Source of the DNA: Terrirubrum flagellatum
Lineage (GTDB): Bacteria; Pseudomonadota; Alphaproteobacteria; Rhizobiales; Beijerinckiaceae
Direction: 5' to 3'
Assembly (NCBI RefSeq): GCF_022059845.1
Contig: NZ_CP091851.1
Coordinates: 4,577,501-4,641,500 of the forward strand
DNA length: 64,000 nucleotides
The first letter of the stretch is position 1; each line of letters opens with the position of its first letter. This document shows, piece after piece, positions 36,899 to 62,377 of this stretch. The position numbers and the translations under genes were made by a program. The notes under the pieces are model-generated. The model worked only from the letters and a program-made list of their open reading frames with translations, was not told the DNA's origin and did not search any database.

Positions 36899-37423
36899 CC
36901 CCCCGGCGGGGGCCATGGGCGTCGAAGCCGCGCGAAGCGAGGACGAGGCGGTTTTCACCTTGATCAAAAACCCTGATGGCCGGAGTGGGGCCGAATGCAG
37001 CGGAATCAATGAATTATTGACGTTACGAAAGTCTCATCGGCTTTGCTTAGTATGAGTTGTTTTTCAACCCCTGCATTTGAATTCCTGTGCATCGCGTTTC
37101 AGCGGACGTCATTTCGCCTGTCTGACCGGGAGACACCGGCGCCACGCCTGTCGGTCACAATCCCGATTCGCGACCCGATGGCGGCGAAAATCGGCGGGCG
37201 GCCCAGATGCGCAGCTTTCTCCGGAACGGCCGGCTCGTCCCGGACAAATTCCCAAGGCGACGCCTCCATAGCCGACAATTCGCACGCTCAAAAACTTAGC
37301 CGCGCTCTAAATAATTATTCACTCCGCGGCCCTTCTTTCGCAAAAGCGCGGCTCGCCTGCGCGGCGCCGCAGCGTTATGACATCTCATCTTTTCATTGCG
37401 TGTTTCAAATTGTGGAGACGGCT
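36899..37423. other. Gap before the PLD-like gene
   Basis: About 525 bp with no clear gene. The frame of the PLD-like gene is open back to 37043, but that stretch lacks family features and a good ribosome site, and the region from 37000 to 37420 is visibly more AT-rich (for instance ATTATTGACG and AAATAATTATTCAC), as expected for a promoter region. Confidence 0.5.
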
Positions 37424-39580
37424 ATGAAATTGGTGAAGCGGGCCGGGGCCTGGTGCAACGGCGAAGTCGCGTATATCGCATGGGATATTGACGAGAAGAT
37501 CGACGATTGCCTCGGCTTCATGGTGACGCGCATTCACCTGTCGGGCGCGGACAAGGGCAAACGCCGCATCCTTCCGACCTGGGTGGCGTTCCAGGACCAG
37601 AACAATCCGAACTGGAACGAACAGGATTCCTCGGTCTGGCCGATCCAGCGATTCGAATGGCGCGATCTCACTTTGCGCAAGTCGCGCGACACCACGAAGG
37701 TGCGGCCGATTGATTTTCAGGTGCATTATGAAATCGTGCCGGTGGGCCTCGACGGGCCGGGCCGCACGAAAATCCCGGCTTCGCCGACCGCGCCCGAAAA
37801 AGACCCCACGGGACAGCCGAGCTATGAAGGGCCGCACCGGCAACTGTTCCAGATCGGCGAACCGACGCTCACGGACCCGATCGACGTCACGCATGATTAT
37901 GGCGACGGCAAAGCGAAGGTCTCCGCGACTTTCACGAACGGCATCCTGTCGACCCAGAACATGGTCCGGCAGCTCGAATCGGTCGGCAAGGCGCCGCCGA
38001 AGAAAGTGCTGAAGGACGCCGCGTCGCCCGACAAGAAGACGCGCGTGAAAGCCGCGGCGCAGAAGGAGAATCATCTTCTCGCGACCCTGAAGAAGGAAAT
38101 CGTCAATCCGAAATCGGACATCCGCTCCTTCCTGACCGGCGATGTTCTCGCCTTCCTGAAGCGTCTGCTCGAACGCGCCGAGAAGGAGAAAGGAGAAGTC
38201 TATCTCTCGCTCTATGAGCTGCACGACCCCGAGCTGATCGAGCTTCTGCTCAAGAGCATGAAGAAGGGCCTCATTCACATCATCCTGTCGACGGCGGGCA
38301 ATCTCAATCCCAACCCGAAGGGAACGCCGAAGGAAGATCGGCAGCCCGTCGCCTGGGACACGGAGAATGATGATCCGCGCCGCAAGCTCCACGCGCTCGA
38401 GACAGGCAAATTAAAGGGCCGCGTCATCGATCGCATGTTCAACACCAGCGCGCGCATCGGCCACAACAAATTCGCCGTCCTTGTGAAAAACAACAAAGCG
38501 GTCGCGGTGCTGAGCGGCAGCACCAACTGGACCGAGACAGGGCTTTGCACCCAGTCGAACAACTCGATCATCATCGAGGATGCGGACATCGCGAATGATT
38601 ACTGGGACTATTGGAAGGCGCTGAGCGAAGACAAGCAGCCGAAACGCGTCTCTGTCACCGTCACTGACCCGAAGGGCAAGAAGGTGAAGGGCGCGAAGCC
38701 GAGCAACGGCAAGCAAGGCAAAGAGCTGCGCGAGGAGAACGAAAAGTCAGCCGGCGAACGCTCGCTTGGCAAATCGGGAAGCGTCGAGCTCTGGCGCTCG
38801 CCGAACACCGAAGCTGTCACCGTACCCAAGAACGATCCGGAGCGGCCCCCGGATCTCTCCGTCGTCTATGAGATGATGGACAAGGCGAAGCAGGCGATCA
38901 TGTTCCTGACTTTCCTGCCCGGCCTTTCCGGCAAGAACAACATCATCGGCGAGGCGGCGCTGCTCGCCGAGAAAAAGAAGAAGCTGTTCGTCATGGGCGC
39001 GGTCAGCGATCCAAAGGCGCTGCCGCCGCCGAAGGAAGACGGCGGCGACGAGACCTATATCGACGCCAAGGGCAAGGAGCGGAAATTGCCGGCGCCGGCG
39101 ATCTGGTGGCCGGGTGGAGACCAGAGCCGCATCGTGATGATCCGCGCCGCGGCGGTGCGCATCCCCTTCGGCAATCTCAGGCCCGAACTTCTCACCGCCG
39201 GCCATGCGATCATCCATGACAAGATCATCGTCATCGATCCGCTGGACGAGAAGAACTGCGCCGTCATCACCGGCAGCCACAACCTCGGCTACAAGGCCTC
39301 CTACTGCAACGATGACAATCTGCTCATCGTGCGCGGCAACAGGCCGCTGGCGATCTCCTACGCGGTGCATGTGATCGACCTCTACGATCACTACGTCTTC
39401 CGCGCCCGCCTCGAGGACAATCTGCGGGATCAGCTTAAGAGCGGAAAGATCAAGTCGTTTGCCGAGGCGGCCGCCAACTCCCAGCCGCACGGGCTCTTAC
39501 GCACCGACGCCGGCTGGCAGGACAAGCACTTCAAGGATCGGACGCCCGGCAGTCTGGACTATTTCCTGGGCGAGGGCTGA
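37424..39580 (+). CDS. Phospholipase D-like protein with two HKD motifs
   Basis: 718 residues. An N-terminal beta-rich domain (about 1-110) with GAWCNGEVAYIAWDIDEKID precedes a PLD domain pair. The first motif at His347 is HNKFAVLVK followed by SGSTNWT; it has H and K but lacks the Asp of HxKxxxxD. The second at His598, HDKIIVID then GSHNLG, is complete. PLD enzymes cut phosphodiesters through a covalent His; two motifs form one active site. No signal peptide is seen. ATG 37424 has GGAG upstream. Substrate is unknown: lipid or nucleic acid. Stand-alone, between AT-rich DNA and serA. Confidence 0.85.
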   Translation: MKLVKRAGAWCNGEVAYIAWDIDEKIDDCLGFMVTRIHLSGADKGKRRILPTWVAFQDQNNPNWNEQDSSVWPIQRFEWRDLTLRKSRDTTKVRPIDFQVHYEIVPVGLDGPGRTKIPASPTAPEKDPTGQPSYEGPHRQLFQIGEPTLTDPIDVTHDYGDGKAKVSATFTNGILSTQNMVRQLESVGKAPPKKVLKDAASPDKKTRVKAAAQKENHLLATLKKEIVNPKSDIRSFLTGDVLAFLKRLLERAEKEKGEVYLSLYELHDPELIELLLKSMKKGLIHIILSTAGNLNPNPKGTPKEDRQPVAWDTENDDPRRKLHALETGKLKGRVIDRMFNTSARIGHNKFAVLVKNNKAVAVLSGSTNWTETGLCTQSNNSIIIEDADIANDYWDYWKALSEDKQPKRVSVTVTDPKGKKVKGAKPSNGKQGKELREENEKSAGERSLGKSGSVELWRSPNTEAVTVPKNDPERPPDLSVVYEMMDKAKQAIMFLTFLPGLSGKNNIIGEAALLAEKKKKLFVMGAVSDPKALPPPKEDGGDETYIDAKGKERKLPAPAIWWPGGDQSRIVMIRAAAVRIPFGNLRPELLTAGHAIIHDKIIVIDPLDEKNCAVITGSHNLGYKASYCNDDNLLIVRGNRPLAISYAVHVIDLYDHYVFRARLEDNLRDQLKSGKIKSFAEAAANSQPHGLLRTDAGWQDKHFKDRTPGSLDYFLGEG

Positions 39581-46414: not shown

Positions 46415-46530
46415 GTCGTGGATCGGGAGGCCGGGCGGCAATGAGAATCACGGCCGGCGCGTTCAACAAAGATGCGGTGACGTCTCTAAAAATGCGTGGA
46501 GTGACGGCGCGAGCTTCAACCTCCAGATAA
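46415..46530 (+). pseudogene. Internally deleted vapBC paralogue
   Basis: The bases around 46430-46441 match the end of vapB (AGRQ stop against AGRR stop) with the same stop/start overlap, here ATGA instead of GTGA. From ATG 46441 the frame reads MRITAG, then AFNKDAVTSLKMRGVTARAS to TAA at 46530. The intact VapC at 47488 begins MKITAD and ends FDKDAVKLLKARGVAARAPS. So the first five or six and last twenty-two residues are kept and about 105 are missing, joined in frame. The ORF is 29 codons. Confidence 0.7.
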
Positions 46531-47239: not shown

Positions 47240-47491
47240 ATGGGCGCGCTCACCGTCACAGCAAAAGGGCAGATCACGTTGCGCCGGGACCTTCTCAGGC
47301 ATCTCGGCGTGCAGCCCGGCGAAAAAGTCGTCATCGACAAGCTTCCAGACGGCCGCGTCGAGATGAAGGCCGCGCCGCCCGCTGGCGATATTTCGGATGT
47401 CTTCAACCTGCTGAAGCGCAAGGGAGCCCCTTCGCTCTCGATCGATGAGATCGGCGAAATCGCCGCACAAGGCTGGGCCGGACGGCGGTGA
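47240..47491 (+). CDS. vapB: AbrB/SpoVT-type antitoxin (VapB)
   Basis: 83 residues. The swapped-hairpin DNA-binding domain is GALTVTAKGQITLRRDLLRH then LGVQPGEKVVIDKLPDGRVE; the rest (GDISDVFNLLKRKGAPSLSI) neutralises the toxin. Stop overlaps the vapC start. This is the intact relative of the remnant at 46415. Confidence 0.9.
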   Translation: MGALTVTAKGQITLRRDLLRHLGVQPGEKVVIDKLPDGRVEMKAAPPAGDISDVFNLLKRKGAPSLSIDEIGEIAAQGWAGRR

Positions 47492-47892
47492 AAATCACGG
47501 CGGACATGAATCTCCTTGTCCGAGCCCTTGCAGGCGATCACCCGACCCAAAGCAGGATCGCGCAAGCCGAACTCGGGAAAGCCGAGCTTGTCGCGCTCAC
47601 CTTGCCGACGCTCTGCGAACTCGTCCGGGTTCTGTCGCGCGGCTATCGAATTCCCGTTCCGGAAATTTCGGAAGCGATCCGCCGCCTGATCAATGCAGGC
47701 AACGTCGCAACGGATCGGCCCGCCGCGGAAGCCGGACTTGCGCTCATGGAGGCAGGCGGCGATTTCGCCGACGGCGTCATCGCCTATTCCGGAAGCTTCC
47801 TCGGCGCCGAATGCTTAGTCTCATTCGACAAGGATGCGGTGAAACTTCTGAAAGCGCGAGGCGTAGCGGCGCGAGCGCCTTCAGCAGCGTAG
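47488..47892 (+). CDS. vapC: VapC-type PIN-domain toxin
   Basis: 134 residues. Acidic residues for Mg2+ are in ITADMNLLVRAL (Asp6), TLPTLCELVRVL (Glu), DFADGVIAYSG (Asp) and VSFDKDAVKLL (Asp). Expected to be an RNase that stops growth when free of VapB. GTG 47488 overlaps the antitoxin stop. Immediately followed by repeat copy 5. Confidence 0.92.
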   Translation: MKITADMNLLVRALAGDHPTQSRIAQAELGKAELVALTLPTLCELVRVLSRGYRIPVPEISEAIRRLINAGNVATDRPAAEAGLALMEAGGDFADGVIAYSGSFLGAECLVSFDKDAVKLLKARGVAARAPSAA

Positions 47893-47899
47893 CGGCGAC

Positions 47900-48041
47900 T
47901 AGAGCATGGCGCGAAAAAGTGGAAACCGGTTTTTCCGCGACGAACGTGAGCGTTCGCGCTGCAAAAGCCATGCTCTAGACTTTTGGAATCGATCACGTTC
48001 CCGCATTTTGATTGGTTCAATCAAAATGCGGCGTGATCTAG
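47900..48041 (+). repeat. RIME-like two-hairpin repeat, copy 5
   Basis: Full-length copy almost the same as copy 3, with AGTGGAAACCGG in place of AGTGGATACCGG and a G in the hairpin B loop (TTGATTGGTTCAATCAA). It begins eight bases after the vapC stop and marks the left border of the AT-richer island. Confidence 0.9.
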
Positions 48042-48379
48042 GCGCCGGTTCGTTTTCGAGATGACGCTTTGGGTATTCGGATATGGCGCGCCGGAGGAGA
48101 TGAAACTGGGCACCGCTATGTAATTGTCACGTATATTAATTTCTAAGATCGTATTTAGAGCATAGCCCGCTTTGCGCATTTTAGACGGCGCTATTTGTAG
48201 CGCCCGTCGCAATCTCTCGCGGCGCTATAGTTAGTGGTTCAAACTCGACATCTGGTGCGCTTTCTTGCGGAGGCGGCAAACACGCCATCGAGTCATTCGG
48301 TCATTGCTCCCCGCTGCTTATTTCTCAAATCCAGGCGATTGCACGCGGTAGCAGCGGCCGGCTATGTCGAAAGGTCAGT
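48042..48379. other. AT-rich gap at the start of the island
   Basis: About 340 bp without a credible gene. It contains AT-rich runs (ATGTAATTGTCACGTATATT) and small hairpins such as GGCGCTATTTGTAGCGCC. TGGCGCGCC at 48084-48092 also occurs at 49827-49835, the 3' end of tRNA-Arg, in the same orientation. Confidence 0.4.
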
Positions 48380-49192
48380 TCAGTAAGTTATCGTCAGGCC
48401 ACCGATATTCAACGTAACCGAAGTAGGATCCACGGGATTGATAGGGACAGCCGGTACAATCTGCGTAATGGTGCAACCGCGGTATATGACTGTGAAGGCT
48501 ACCTGCAATGCGGTGTCCAGACACTGGACGGTAATATCCCGTTGTCCGCCTGCCTGCTTCCACGCACGAAAATCCGCTGCCGCAGTTTCCGCCATGGTGA
48601 TGACGACAGGAGCGATGACGCCTGAGCTGTATGTTAACGGTCCCAGCTTCGAGACAAAAATGTTCGTGGATGATCCGCTCAACGCAACTTTGAAGCAGAA
48701 GGAAGGTAAGGAGTCTCTGCGGCCCCTATAAGCGGGGGTCACGGTGCTCCTGCTCGTCCGGCCAAACACTCTCTGCCGTAATTGGGATTTCCTTGCGTTC
48801 GCTCGGCTTAAAGGGCCGATTGTGCTCGCACCAGGGGGAGGAAGCGGCACCTCGCGCAGGTTAGTGACCTGCAGTGTTAGGGTAAGAGTCAAAAGTTCGG
48901 ACCGCGACGTATCGAGCGCTGATATCTCGGCTTTCTGAATGAACGAACTATCCCATGCGTCGCAGTAGATCGGGCGAAAATTCGTATCCAGAGTAATGAG
49001 ATTGCCTGACATTATGCGGCGCTGACCTTGCATCTCGTCGAACGCCCAGTCGCTAAGAAATTCGCCAACCACAAGGCCTTGTCCAAACATAATCGAAGTT
49101 TCTGTCGGAACTGCTACAGACGCCAGGAATCCCGCCGTCTGCCCGTTCAGGGTCAATTTCCAAGCAAAATCCGGAAAGGAATCGGTTCTCAT
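48380..49192 (-). CDS. Two-domain tail-tube-like (gp19-like) protein
   Basis: 270 residues read as two similar beta-rich domains. The first (about 5-110) has DFAWKLTLNGQTAGFLASVA, WAFDEMQGQRRIMSGNLITL and TLTLTLQVTNL. The second (about 165-270) has SFCFKVALSGSSTNIFVSKL, AAADFRAWKQAGGQRDITVQ, CLD and SVTLNIGGLTITY. This is the order of gp19/tail-tube domains of phage tails and contractile injection systems. No sheath, baseplate or phage gene is nearby. Base composition is lower in GC than the surroundings. ATG 49192 has GGAG upstream; TTG 49210 is an alternative. Function is unknown. Confidence 0.6.
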   Translation of the reverse strand: MRTDSFPDFAWKLTLNGQTAGFLASVAVPTETSIMFGQGLVVGEFLSDWAFDEMQGQRRIMSGNLITLDTNFRPIYCDAWDSSFIQKAEISALDTSRSELLTLTLTLQVTNLREVPLPPPGASTIGPLSRANARKSQLRQRVFGRTSRSTVTPAYRGRRDSLPSFCFKVALSGSSTNIFVSKLGPLTYSSGVIAPVVITMAETAAADFRAWKQAGGQRDITVQCLDTALQVAFTVIYRGCTITQIVPAVPINPVDPTSVTLNIGGLTITY

Positions 49193-49318
49193 ACACGTGC
49201 TCTCCGTCAAGCAATTATTGACGAATGCGACTGGTCCCGAAAAAAGCCGGCAACTCGCACCGACTCGATCTCGACAGCTATAAGCGCGCGGATACTGCGC
49301 ATTTAGCCAAAATTACTT

Positions 49319-49588
49319 GTGAGAACGCTTTCAAGCAACGCGGTCCATAAAGAACGGAGAGAAAGTCCTCCGCGCGAAGTCCATACGCGTTCGCTCATGG
49401 CGGCGGCTCGAAGGAGAGGATGGCAAGTGATCGACACTTTGATTGCTGCGATTGACGCCGGCGAGCTTGATACCCTGCTCGGCAACATGAGCCGATCATC
49501 AACGGCGGTCATGAAGGCGAAGCGAGCGGCCTGGGAATATGGAGTGGGATCAGCCTATTGCAGCCCCACTGCCCCCTTTTGTCGCTGA
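49319..49588 (+). CDS. Doubtful short hypothetical ORF
   Basis: Up to 89 residues; the part from ATG 49397 (MAAARRRGWQVIDTLIAAID, AGELDTLLGNMSRSSTAVMK) looks protein-like, but the end runs through the SEC-C remnant on the other strand. No family recognised. It may be a remnant in the island. Confidence 0.25.
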   Translation: MRTLSSNAVHKERRESPPREVHTRSLMAAARRRGWQVIDTLIAAIDAGELDTLLGNMSRSSTAVMKAKRAAWEYGVGSAYCSPTAPFCR

Positions 49589-49787
49589 ACTTCTTGCCTG
49601 AGCCGCAGGGGCACGGCTCGTTACGGCCCGCCTTCGCCAGTTCGCGCGGCTCAGAGCTCTGGTCGATCGGCCTTCGAGCATCATCGGATGCAGTGCTTTC
49701 GAGGAACGTCGGCTGTCGAGAGCGATCCCCGGCCACGGAACGGCGGCTTCGGGTCGAAGCAGACGCAGGCGCCCCGTTTTGTTCCAA
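49509..49787 (-). pseudogene. SEC-C motif fragment
   Basis: The frame contains KAGRNEPCPCGSGKKF, the first half of a SEC-C zinc motif found at the C-termini of SecA and many other proteins, but the closing KKCCG/KHCHG part is replaced by SDKRGQWGCNRL. The upstream residues have no recognisable domain. It is best read as the broken end of a lost gene near tRNA-Arg. Confidence 0.35.
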
Positions 49788-49826: not shown

Positions 49827-49903
49827 TGGCGCGCCCGAAAGGATTCGAACCTCTGACCCCCAGATTCGTAGTCTGGTGCTCTATCCAGCTGAGCTACGGG
49901 CGC
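49827..49903 (-). tRNA. tRNA-Arg (ACG)
   Basis: 77 bases with encoded CCA. Acceptor GCGCCCG/CGGGCGC, anticodon stem CCAGA/TCTGG with loop CTACGAA (anticodon ACG), T arm with TTCGAAT. The AT-rich island lies directly beyond its 3' end. Confidence 0.96.
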
Positions 49904-53410: not shown

Positions 53411-53998
53411 TCAGTTTTCCGAGCCGGAGGGCTCTCCCGCCCGCGCCGACGCCGGCCGCGGCGGATCGGTCTCGGGCGTCCAGACGAAGCCGCGCACCGG
53501 CTCGTCGATGTTCTTCACCTGATACTCGCCGGCGTCGACGAAGCGGCCGCGCATGTCGCCGCGCAGGTTGAAATGGACGGCTTCCGACACCACGACGCCG
53601 CCCGGCGGGGCGATCTCCTGCAGGCGGACGGCGAAGTTGAGCCCTTCGCCATAGCGCTCCTCGCCGGCGACGATCAGGTCGGCGAGCACGATCGAGATGC
53701 GCGACTCGATCGGCTGACCGACATTGTTGCGCTTGTCGGCGAGCTTGACCGCGCGCTGGAACTCCATCGCCCAGGTGGCGGCCTCATGCACGCTGTCGAA
53801 CTCGATCAGCGCGCCGTCGCCCATGATCTTGAAGGCTTTGCCGTGATAGCGGGCGAGCGTCGGCTCGCCGAGCTCGCGCCTGATCCAGCCCATGGCGCGC
53901 AAGGTGCCGCGCTCGTCGGCGCGCAGCATGCGCGTGAAGCCGACGACGTCGAGCGACACGATCACGGTCATGCGGCGATGGGTGGGCATGGGTCGCAA
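53411..53998 (-). CDS. Class III adenylate/guanylate cyclase domain protein
   Basis: 195 residues, a stand-alone catalytic domain. Metal Asp in IVSLDVVGFTRML and KIMGDGALIEF; the transition-state Asn and Arg are kept in YGEGLNFAVRLQEIAPPGG. It should make cAMP (or cGMP) as a dimer. It is the upstream gene of the pair with the pseudo-cyclase/TPR protein, so the two could form a heterodimer; that is inference. Confidence 0.82.
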   Translation of the reverse strand: MRPMPTHRRMTVIVSLDVVGFTRMLRADERGTLRAMGWIRRELGEPTLARYHGKAFKIMGDGALIEFDSVHEAATWAMEFQRAVKLADKRNNVGQPIESRISIVLADLIVAGEERYGEGLNFAVRLQEIAPPGGVVVSEAVHFNLRGDMRGRFVDAGEYQVKNIDEPVRGFVWTPETDPPRPASARAGEPSGSEN

Positions 53999-55368: not shown

Positions 55369-56169
55369 GTGCAAGATCCGTTCGCTAGCTCTACAGCTTT
55401 GGTAGCTCACGCTCGGCGCCGCATAGCAGAGTTCACTGCTCTGTTCACGGATTTTGAGTCATCCGACCCTTATGAGCTAGTCAGAGAGGGCCGACCTGAC
55501 CGCTACGCCACACTTTATGTGATTCAATTTAGACACAAACCACCCGACGAACTTAAAATTATCTCTTGGGAAATATTCAATTCTCTGCGCACTTCATTGG
55601 ATCACGCAATGTTTGTTTGCGCGTTCGCAAATTCCAAGCAGCCTCACCTTAATCATCCGTCGTTAAGGCATGTCCATTTTCCTTTTGGTAAATCCAAGGA
55701 TGAAGCCAAAGTTGGGAAAAGCAAAATGATCCCGCGAGATATTTTTGATCTCGCGATCAGTTTCAAACCGTATGCAAACCCTGACGGAGATAGAGTTCTG
55801 TACTCTTTAAATGAGGTTAGAAATGTTGGCGTTCATCGGATGTTTGTGCCGATGGCGATCTTTCCTTCAGGCTACGAATTACACTCAGAATGGACGCCCA
55901 GAAACATCGGCCGGATCGTACGAGTTCCAGAACAATTTGATGGATTAGGACATTGGGATATCGATACTCAACGCCTAATTCTGGGAGTTTTTGACGAGGA
56001 ATATACCGTCAGTTGTAAGCTTACGGAAAAGCCTCAGCTTATCTTCGCTTATATCAAGGGACTTGCAGGGCCGAATGCCATAGAGAAGCTAAATGTCTTG
56101 GCGAATCGTATCGAGGAAGTGACCGCGGCGATACGCTCTAAGGCCTATGAAATTGGGCTATTCCAATAA
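55369..56169 (+). CDS. AT-rich hypothetical protein with a HEPN-like signature
   Basis: 266 residues. Residues 64-80 (IISWEIFNSLRTSLDHA) match the helix FHNLRSALDHL of a family of hypothetical proteins with HEPN-like helices; VRNVGVHRM may add a conserved His. Its codon use is AT-richer than all neighbours, as is the 215-bp leader, which points to acquisition. GTG 55369 is the start; the ribosome site is weak. No antitoxin-like partner is seen. Function is unknown. Confidence 0.65.
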   Translation: MQDPFASSTALVAHARRRIAEFTALFTDFESSDPYELVREGRPDRYATLYVIQFRHKPPDELKIISWEIFNSLRTSLDHAMFVCAFANSKQPHLNHPSLRHVHFPFGKSKDEAKVGKSKMIPRDIFDLAISFKPYANPDGDRVLYSLNEVRNVGVHRMFVPMAIFPSGYELHSEWTPRNIGRIVRVPEQFDGLGHWDIDTQRLILGVFDEEYTVSCKLTEKPQLIFAYIKGLAGPNAIEKLNVLANRIEEVTAAIRSKAYEIGLFQ

Positions 56170-61420: not shown

Positions 61421-62377
61421 ATGTCTCCCATGCTCGGCATCGGCGCCTATGGCGACAGCGTGAAGCTGCTGCAGGGCGCGCTCAATCTGTGGCCGAAGAG
61501 TTTCCTGCCACCACTCGACGTCGACGGCTCGTTCGGCCCCAAGACCGGCGCCAAGACGAAAGAATTCCAATCCGGCTCGAATCTGACACCCGACGGGGTG
61601 GTCGGCCCCATGACATGGGCCGCGCTTGAACCGCTGGTGCAGATGATCAAGAGCGTCGTTCCGATCGCAGCCGACGAGGCGGCCGCGGGCGAACGTATCG
61701 CGCTGGGCGCAGAAGCAGCGCTCGCTTCCATGGGCTGGACGTCAGCCGACACCTATTCGCCGGCAAGTTTCAAGATCGCGGCGGCGAAATGCGCCGATCC
61801 CTCCGCGCCGAACCGTCCGCGCCAGGGCGGCGCATCGCTGGCGCAGATTTTCGCAATCGCCGAGGTTCCCGGCGGTTATCAAGGCCGCTGCGCGACGATC
61901 ACTCAGGCGGCTGTCGCGAAATGGCAGGATCAAACCGTCGCCGGAACGCAATGGCGCAACGCCAACGATCTCTGCGCCTGGTGCGGCATCTTCACGGTTT
62001 ATGTGATGCGCTCGGTGGGCTTCTCGATTCCCGGCGGATGGGGCTCGCAACAACAATATGTGGAAGAGGCGCGGACCGCCTTCAACAAGAAGACCGGTTC
62101 AGGCTCGGTCTATCGGCTATTCACAGACCCCGCGCAGGCGTTTCGCGGCTGCGTCGGGGTGATCAATCCGACGGGACGCAATCATCATTTCATCGTTACC
62201 GGCAATCAGGACGGCGCCATTTCCAGCGTCGACGGAAATTCATCCGGCTTCGGCATCGATCCCGATCCGAAGATGCGATGGGATTGCAAGAGCATCATAG
62301 GCCGCAACGCCTACAAGCATTCCGAGTTGAAGGAGAATCAGGCCTATTTCCTGTTCCCTGCTCCGACCAACCGGTGA
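61421..62377 (+). CDS. Peptidoglycan-binding, CHAP-like hydrolase
   Basis: 318 residues. PG_binding_1 domain at about 8-72 (GDSVKLLQGALNLWPKSFLP, GSFGPKTGAKTKEFQ, TPDGVVGPMTWAAL). The C-terminal part (about 175-318) has Cys in LCAWCGIFTVYVMRSVG, His in GRNHHFIVTG and VDGNSSG, the Cys-His-polar order of CHAP/NlpC-like amidases. No signal peptide is visible, so export may need a dedicated secretion route, or the protein acts as an effector or endolysin. No immunity-like gene follows. Confidence 0.75.
   Translation: MSPMLGIGAYGDSVKLLQGALNLWPKSFLPPLDVDGSFGPKTGAKTKEFQSGSNLTPDGVVGPMTWAALEPLVQMIKSVVPIAADEAAAGERIALGAEAALASMGWTSADTYSPASFKIAAAKCADPSAPNRPRQGGASLAQIFAIAEVPGGYQGRCATITQAAVAKWQDQTVAGTQWRNANDLCAWCGIFTVYVMRSVGFSIPGGWGSQQQYVEEARTAFNKKTGSGSVYRLFTDPAQAFRGCVGVINPTGRNHHFIVTGNQDGAISSVDGNSSGFGIDPDPKMRWDCKSIIGRNAYKHSELKENQAYFLFPAPTNR

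Follow-up and report, generated by a model that had tools for sequence, protein, structure and literature searches.

What is a gene for an apparent pair of phage tail-tube domains doing in a stretch of bacterial DNA in which we read no other tail genes? The gene encodes P0001, a protein of 270 amino acids from Terrirubrum flagellatum that the preliminary description took to be an orphan with two tail-tube-like domains in tandem. We analyzed P0001 together with the 64,000-nucleotide stretch of DNA that contains its gene (the window).

The gene, its composition, and the tRNA-Arg site

The P0001 coding sequence (48380..49192, minus strand) begins with an ATG at 49192, ends with a TAA at 48380-48382, and has 270 codons without an internal stop. 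A GGAG ribosome-binding sequence (49202..49205, minus strand) can be read 9 nt 5' of the ATG. A promoter scan for the gene found none, which says little because 1.0 was expected by chance. The analysis confirmed that the ORF is real.

As had been claimed in the preliminary description, the gene is AT-richer than its surroundings: its GC content is 53.6%, as compared to 63.8% for the whole window. The gene's composition is foreign, with a GC content by codon position of 51/51/59% and a host-codon log-odds of −65. GC3 is 62-92% in 60 window genes that were picked by host codon score (by construction, these have positive scores, and such a set would miss foreign genes). The gene lies in a low-GC stretch that reaches from a PIN gene to a tRNA gene (47893..49500, no strand assigned; 51-55% GC in most 500-base windows), which is probably an acquired segment. 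By our reading of the ORFs, this stretch (about 47.9-49.5 kb) contains, besides P0001, only ORFs of less than 100 amino acids. Between the P0001 gene and the tRNA gene is an ORF of 92 amino acids with a SEC-C motif (49509..49787, minus strand; PF02810, E = 8.2e-8), which is probably a gene fragment. The PIN gene belongs to a MazE-like/PIN pair at 47240-47892 (identified with Pfam; the MazE match is below the cut-off), and two short segments within 46429-46514 (46429-46454 and 46462-46514; 85% and 75% identical, respectively) look like a decayed copy of the ends of the PIN gene.

The P0001 gene is on the 3' side of a gene for tRNA-Arg (ACG; 49827..49903, minus strand; found by ARAGORN and Rfam). 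In the only other genome from the genus that we searched (G001), the tRNA-Arg and 56 bases 5' of it align with the window at 82%, the similarity stops at the 3' end of the tRNA-Arg, and a cyclase-like gene that flanks the tRNA on the opposite side has its counterpart at 53458-53987 of the window. In G001, the end of a large recombinase-like ORF overlaps the 3' part of the tRNA-Arg and is followed by conjugation-type ORFs (L089, 10025-14253; these names are our reading of the ORFs, not library results). Because of this element-like insertion in the congener, the site resembles one at which elements integrate. Within the window, there is no second copy of the tRNA-Arg end, and in the 20 kb that flank the window on each side, we found no repeat of it beyond 12-base matches. 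Nor did we recognize an integrase in the ORFs that surround the P0001 gene, so the source element of the gene is a guess. When the site was compared across named genomes, the sole match to the flanking cyclase was from Mycobacterium, at 29%. Overall, we consider it very likely that the P0001 gene is of horizontal origin.

We did not find a usable homolog of P0001 in GTDB contigs; in IMG/VR (searched with whole P0001, with an alignment of the two halves, and with each half); in phage and plasmid records at E ≤ 1; in phage records at E ≤ 10 when searched with the halves; in PDB sequences; in 2 genomes from the genus, 397 from the family, 397 from the order, and 289 from the phylum; or, using a profile of the two halves, in 142 genomes from the class and 397 from the family. 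(Some genomes are shared between these sets, and the window's own genome is in all of them.) Searching 50,697 phage records, including T5, with whole P0001 (tblastn) gave nothing at E ≤ 10. Within these samples, which exclude metagenomes, P0001 does deserve to be called an orphan.

The searches did yield weak matches. Of the 397 family genomes, 33 had a match at E ≤ 0.1, and one of these was the window's own genome. There were 34 places in family genomes outside the own genome; 23 of the 34 had internal stops, and none spanned more than 144 residues. The best match in the family (L002, E = 7e-5) was not reproduced by tblastn against its locus, and another (L004) is a frame that is antisense to another ORF. 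In the 289 phylum genomes, the sole other match to pass 1e-3 (L107) is interrupted by three stops and runs antisense to a long ORF. Among the profile matches, one from the class genomes (L077) reads as a chemoreceptor, and one from the family genomes (L102) is a frame with stops. We judged the weak matches outside the own genome to be due to chance. Finally, the first domain of P0001 matched a tail protein J-like sequence from a Stenotrophomonas phage with E = 3, which is suggestive but not significant.

Two similar halves and the gp19 family

P0001 contains an internal duplication. Residues 2-104 align with residues 158-270, with the elements in the same order, and the halves are 27% identical (MAFFT). 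The local alignment score of half against half is 57 (BLOSUM62), as compared to a mean of 26.2 for shuffled sequences (standard deviation 4.6), and none of 5000 shuffles scored as high. If three split points are tried, then one of 2000 shuffles equals the score. In the MAFFT alignment, both halves have R-x-D-S-x-P-x-F-x-x-K-x-x-L-x-G at the start and GQR-x-I mid-way. The tail-tube motifs that had been claimed for P0001 (an opening with F, K, L, and G, a W block, and an LD strand) are found in both halves, as F-x-x-K-x-x-L-x-G, then DW or F-x-A-W, and then LD. We place the tail-tube-like domains at residues 1-115 (domain 1; 48848..49192, minus strand) and at residues 157-270 (domain 2; 48383..48724, minus strand). 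The linker between them (residues 116-156; 48725..48847, minus strand) has 6 Pro, 7 Arg, 5 Ser, 4 Thr, and no Asp or Glu.

Whole P0001 does not match any family in Pfam, PHROGs, NCBIfam, or PADLOC at E ≤ 10, and neither half by itself matches Pfam at E ≤ 10, including the gp19 family (PF06841). Because no curated library reports a family for P0001, we built our own profile of gp19. We found gp19 members at 33 loci (4 over the cut-off plus 29 others) in 119 genomes from the family and 249 from the phylum. Thirty of the 33 entered the profile, which has 31 members if T4 gp19 is added. (We left out L052 and L068, which were unparsed, and L074, which is a partial match.) As background, we used 115-residue chunks from the window's six open frames, and in the sets of 603 these chunks overlap; the chunks are therefore neither all true proteins nor all independent.

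With HHalign and the 30-member profile, which does not include T4 gp19, the C-terminal half scored 25.8 and the N-terminal half scored 19.6. Both halves exceeded all 603 chunks and all 300 shuffles (best shuffle 18.2); the margin for the N-terminal half is slim, as the best chunk reached 19.4. With the same profile, true tube proteins scored 21.4 (T4 gp19), 20.4 (P2 FII), 15.8 (Mu M), 14.4 (phiCbK gp92), 14.3 (lambda V), and 10.7 and 10.8 (the two halves of T5 pb6). Mu M, lambda V, pb6, and phiCbK gp92 are not separated from the background, so the test can miss relatives. With the 31-member profile, the C-terminal half scored 28.1 and the N-terminal half scored 19.7. In the background for this profile, one of the first 200 chunks scored 23.4, which beats the N-terminal half; the rest were at most 17.6, and 300 shuffles were at most 19.6. 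Depending on the profile, the HHalign p-values were 1.4e-4 to 1e-3 for the C-terminal half and 6e-3 to 1e-2 for the N-terminal half. The match of the C-terminal half spans only 41-42 columns, and its score shifts with the member set and the cut (23.8, 28.1, or 25.8). Scores were lower for whole P0001 (18.6-20.1) and for a two-row query (23.9), and the reversed gp19 profile gave 14.8 for each half.

With HMMER (filters off), the N-terminal half scored 10.1 bits against the gp19 profile, which is above the 603 chunks (best 3.8) and 2000 shuffles (best 6.4). This match spans positions 51-131 of the 132 in the profile (E = 1.2e-4 for two sequences searched). The C-terminal half scored just 2.5 bits, which was equaled by 3 of 603 chunks and 20 of 2000 shuffles and is not above background. 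T4 gp19, P2 FII, and Mu M scored 3.7, 0.3, and 0.5 bits, respectively. If each half of P0001 is taken by its better method, then both score above the left-out T4 gp19. Each half matches the gp19 profile by at least one method, and each stands out by one of the two methods at the level of distant true tubes.

Another possibility is that P0001 has some other fold: it could be a duplicated beta-rich protein whose likeness to gp19 reflects the convergence of beta-strands and of LD and W motifs. This would fit with the lack of a match in the libraries, the partial alignment of the C-terminal half, and the poor structural models described below, including a model of the N-terminal half without a helix. 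Also, with p-values of roughly 1e-4 to 7e-3 for a single test, the likeness to gp19 would not be noticeable among the matches from a blind scan across all Pfam families. However, gp19 was named in the preliminary description before the tests were run, so these are close to single tests. Furthermore, the order of the elements agrees with gp19 along both halves, and the reversed profile and the shuffles score lower. (When the alignment of the halves with each other is compared to their alignments with gp19, the register is off by a few residues near the LD strand.) Another fold seems unlikely to us, and P0001 probably carries two domains of the tube type.

Both halves are shorter than their presumed counterparts in one place. 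From the opening F to the W of the putative helix, there are 40 residues in the N-terminal half and 46 in the C-terminal half, as compared to a median of 66 in the 31 gp19 members. (The shortest distances in gp19 are 52 and 54, from matches that are cut at the start, and the next is 65.) From the W to the end, there are 67 and 60 residues, respectively, as compared to a gp19 median of 67. The roughly 20-26 residues by which the halves fall short are missing from the region in which tubes have the β2-β3 loop, which stacks the rings, and neither half has the long β2-β3 segment of the gp19 family. According to passages of one paper, this loop makes the contacts between stacked rings in the tubes of T5 and YSD1 (PMC8718954).

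Structure prediction with AlphaFold2 gave a pLDDT of 36.0 for whole P0001 (from the single sequence) and 36.2 for a domain (from a two-row alignment). In both of these low-confidence models, the C-terminal half has strands, one helix at the W motif, and then strands. In the whole-protein model, the N-terminal half consists of strands without a helix, and the W falls within one of the strands. The strand-helix-strand order of the C-terminal half would resemble a tube domain; at a pLDDT of 36, neither model counts for much. Of the 161 matches that Foldseek gave for the domain model at E ≤ 10, none reached E ≤ 0.001; among the 50 of these that were listed, there were many LOV domains and no tail protein. 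The interpretation in the preliminary description is thus supported in part: its claim of two tail-tube-like domains in tandem has support from the profile comparison and the internal repeat, but not from a structure.

Tail genes in the genome and known tube proteins

Tail genes are not apparent near the P0001 gene. We read none among the 55 ORFs of at least 60 amino acids at 44-54 kb, none in the 60 selected window genes (up to 400 amino acids of each), and none in 9 ORFs at 54.7-56.3 kb, and Pfam identified no tail families among 9 ORFs from the window. (In other parts of the window, our reading could have overlooked a tail gene that is small and foreign.) An earlier statement that there are no sheath, baseplate, or ATPase genes within 15 kb agrees with the reading of the ORFs and with Pfam for those 9, and we see no sign that P0001 belongs to a nearby tail. 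In the whole genome (6.38 Mb on 4 contigs), there is no match to PF06841 (no control genome matched in this search; the model does find members in other genomes). Our search for a sheath used the PF17482 model, which had no match in the 6.38 Mb and matched six control genomes.

P0001 could nevertheless be a live part of a tail or injection machine that we did not recognize and whose other genes are elsewhere, such as in a GTA-like cluster. The same genome has a head-tail cluster at about 2.917-2.927 Mb of G000:C1 (L104, 2825-13461), with terminase, portal, protease, capsid, adaptor, head closure, tail terminator, major tail protein, and glycoside hydrolase; 9 of the 10 ORFs tested match PHROGs, and "GTA-like" is our own reading. 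The only portal match in the genome (PF04860) is about 1.7 Mb from the P0001 gene, and the presence at that distance of a cluster with terminase, portal, protease, capsid, connector, and major tail genes is what favors a live component. However, the cluster has a major tail protein of its own (136 amino acids, phrog_1407), which adjoins the tail terminator. Also, the genome has neither a PF17482 sheath nor another PF06841 tube, and the composition of the P0001 gene is foreign. We therefore consider a live component to be highly improbable. Although the phrog_1407 protein is a tail tube protein from the same genome, it is unlike P0001: it has 136 amino acids, is encoded in a head-tail cluster, and scores −1.3 bits against the gp19 profile (HMMER).

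How would P0001 compare to the known tube proteins? It appears to share with the gp19 family (PF06841, from contractile tails and eCIS) the order of an opening F-x-V/L strand with a G, a helix with a W, a strand that ends in LD, and a final pair of strands. Unlike the gp19 family, P0001 has two domains per chain, is below every curated cut-off, has F-W distances of 40 and 46 instead of 66, and is found in a genome with no match to the PF17482 sheath. Neither whole P0001 nor its halves have a Pfam match to the Hcp model of the T6SS (PF05638). Two tube-like domains are found in hub and spike proteins such as T4 gp27 and VgrG. Passages of one paper indicate that the duplication of the tube domain in hub and spike proteins is linked differently from that of T5 pb6 (PMC5717097).

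T5 pb6 itself is described, in passages of the same paper, as a duplication and fusion that forms a trimeric, pseudo-hexameric ring (PMC5717097), and phiCbK, whose tube protein is gp92, is named in these passages as the other tube with threefold symmetry. P0001 is like pb6 in having tandem tube-type domains in one chain, at the level of sequence only. Unlike P0001, which has 270 residues and stands alone, pb6 is described in part of one paper as having about 374 residues of tube domains, long loops, and an Ig-like domain (PMC8718954). The halves of pb6 were absent from the 14 that were listed of 36 pairwise scores. As neither pb6 nor phiCbK gp92 scores above background against the gp19 profile, they are analogues of P0001 and not demonstrated relatives.

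As a rule, tubes do have a single domain, as had been stated earlier, but there are exceptions: T5 pb6 is a fused double tube, and the phiCbK tube is said to be one as well (PMC5717097, PMC8718954). Fused double tubes thus have precedents. If the fold holds, then the novelty of P0001 consists of a sequence that resembles gp19, loops that are short, and a gene that stands in isolation. Keyword searches of the literature, which covered the titles among the matches listed and few subscription journals, gave none on a stand-alone double tube.

Stranded or domesticated: possible explanations for the gene

Our best reading, in which our confidence is about even, is that the P0001 gene was acquired, is stranded, and encodes a fused pair of tail-tube domains of the gp19 kind. 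Each half would be a tube beta-sandwich with a flanking helix, and P0001, like T5 pb6, would assemble into a trimer in imitation of the hexamer that normally makes up the ring. As the halves lack about 20-26 residues at the ring-stacking β2-β3 loop, we infer that the rings would stack poorly and that P0001 would form a single or terminal ring (a cap, initiator, or adaptor) and not a long tube. The gene would have entered at the tRNA-Arg with a phage or a tail-derived element that has since been lost around it, and P0001 would now be without a partner and probably without a working role. Among the points against this explanation, there is no relative of P0001 in the samples to show conservation, and the ORF is intact, which is not required of a long-dead remnant.

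Alternatively, the tube could be domesticated and retained because the host or a small mobile element puts it to its own use. P0001 might, for instance, form a secreted or cytosolic ring, or it might be a decoy that blocks incoming phage tails. In favor of domestication, the reading frame is unbroken and comes with an ATG and a ribosome site, even though the halves have diverged to 27% identity, and the gene is apart from tail genes. However, P0001 was found in none of the other genomes that we sampled, so nothing shows that the gene is kept, and it does not match any defense family (PADLOC). Domestication, including either of these examples, seems unlikely to us, and it is reasonably likely that the gene is a stranded remnant or cargo instead. 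The earlier suggestion that P0001 might be a domesticated part or belong to an unknown system is conjecture, and a stranded gene from an integrated element is simpler.

A more speculative variant is that P0001 represents an unknown family of stand-alone, fused tube-ring trimers that are free of tails: the stacking loop would have been lost, and P0001 would form a six-lobed single ring that does not polymerize. Its members would be single-gene cargo of mobile elements and might, for instance, plug phage tails, act as decoys for them, or form a secreted pore. We consider this reading as a whole quite improbable.

If the tube fold is correct, then P0001 would be a further fusion of two tube domains, besides T5, phiCbK, and the hub proteins, and one that is minimal, with short loops and no tail. 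As a ring without stacking, it would also offer a way to test what the β2-β3 loop does, and it would imply that tube proteins can travel alone. If P0001 is only a stranded phage gene, then it is a curiosity without further consequence.

Elsewhere in the window, a 266-amino-acid, AT-rich ORF at 55369-56169 (plus strand) lies among GC-rich genes, has a GC content as low as 44% in 500-base windows, and does not belong to a Pfam family; it is likely a second foreign orphan. A protein of 318 amino acids (61421-62377, plus strand) has a PG_binding_1 domain and a long C-terminal part with no Pfam match. Finally, a large protein with a PLD-like domain (PF13091) is encoded at 37043-39580 (plus strand), in a slightly AT-richer stretch (59% GC).
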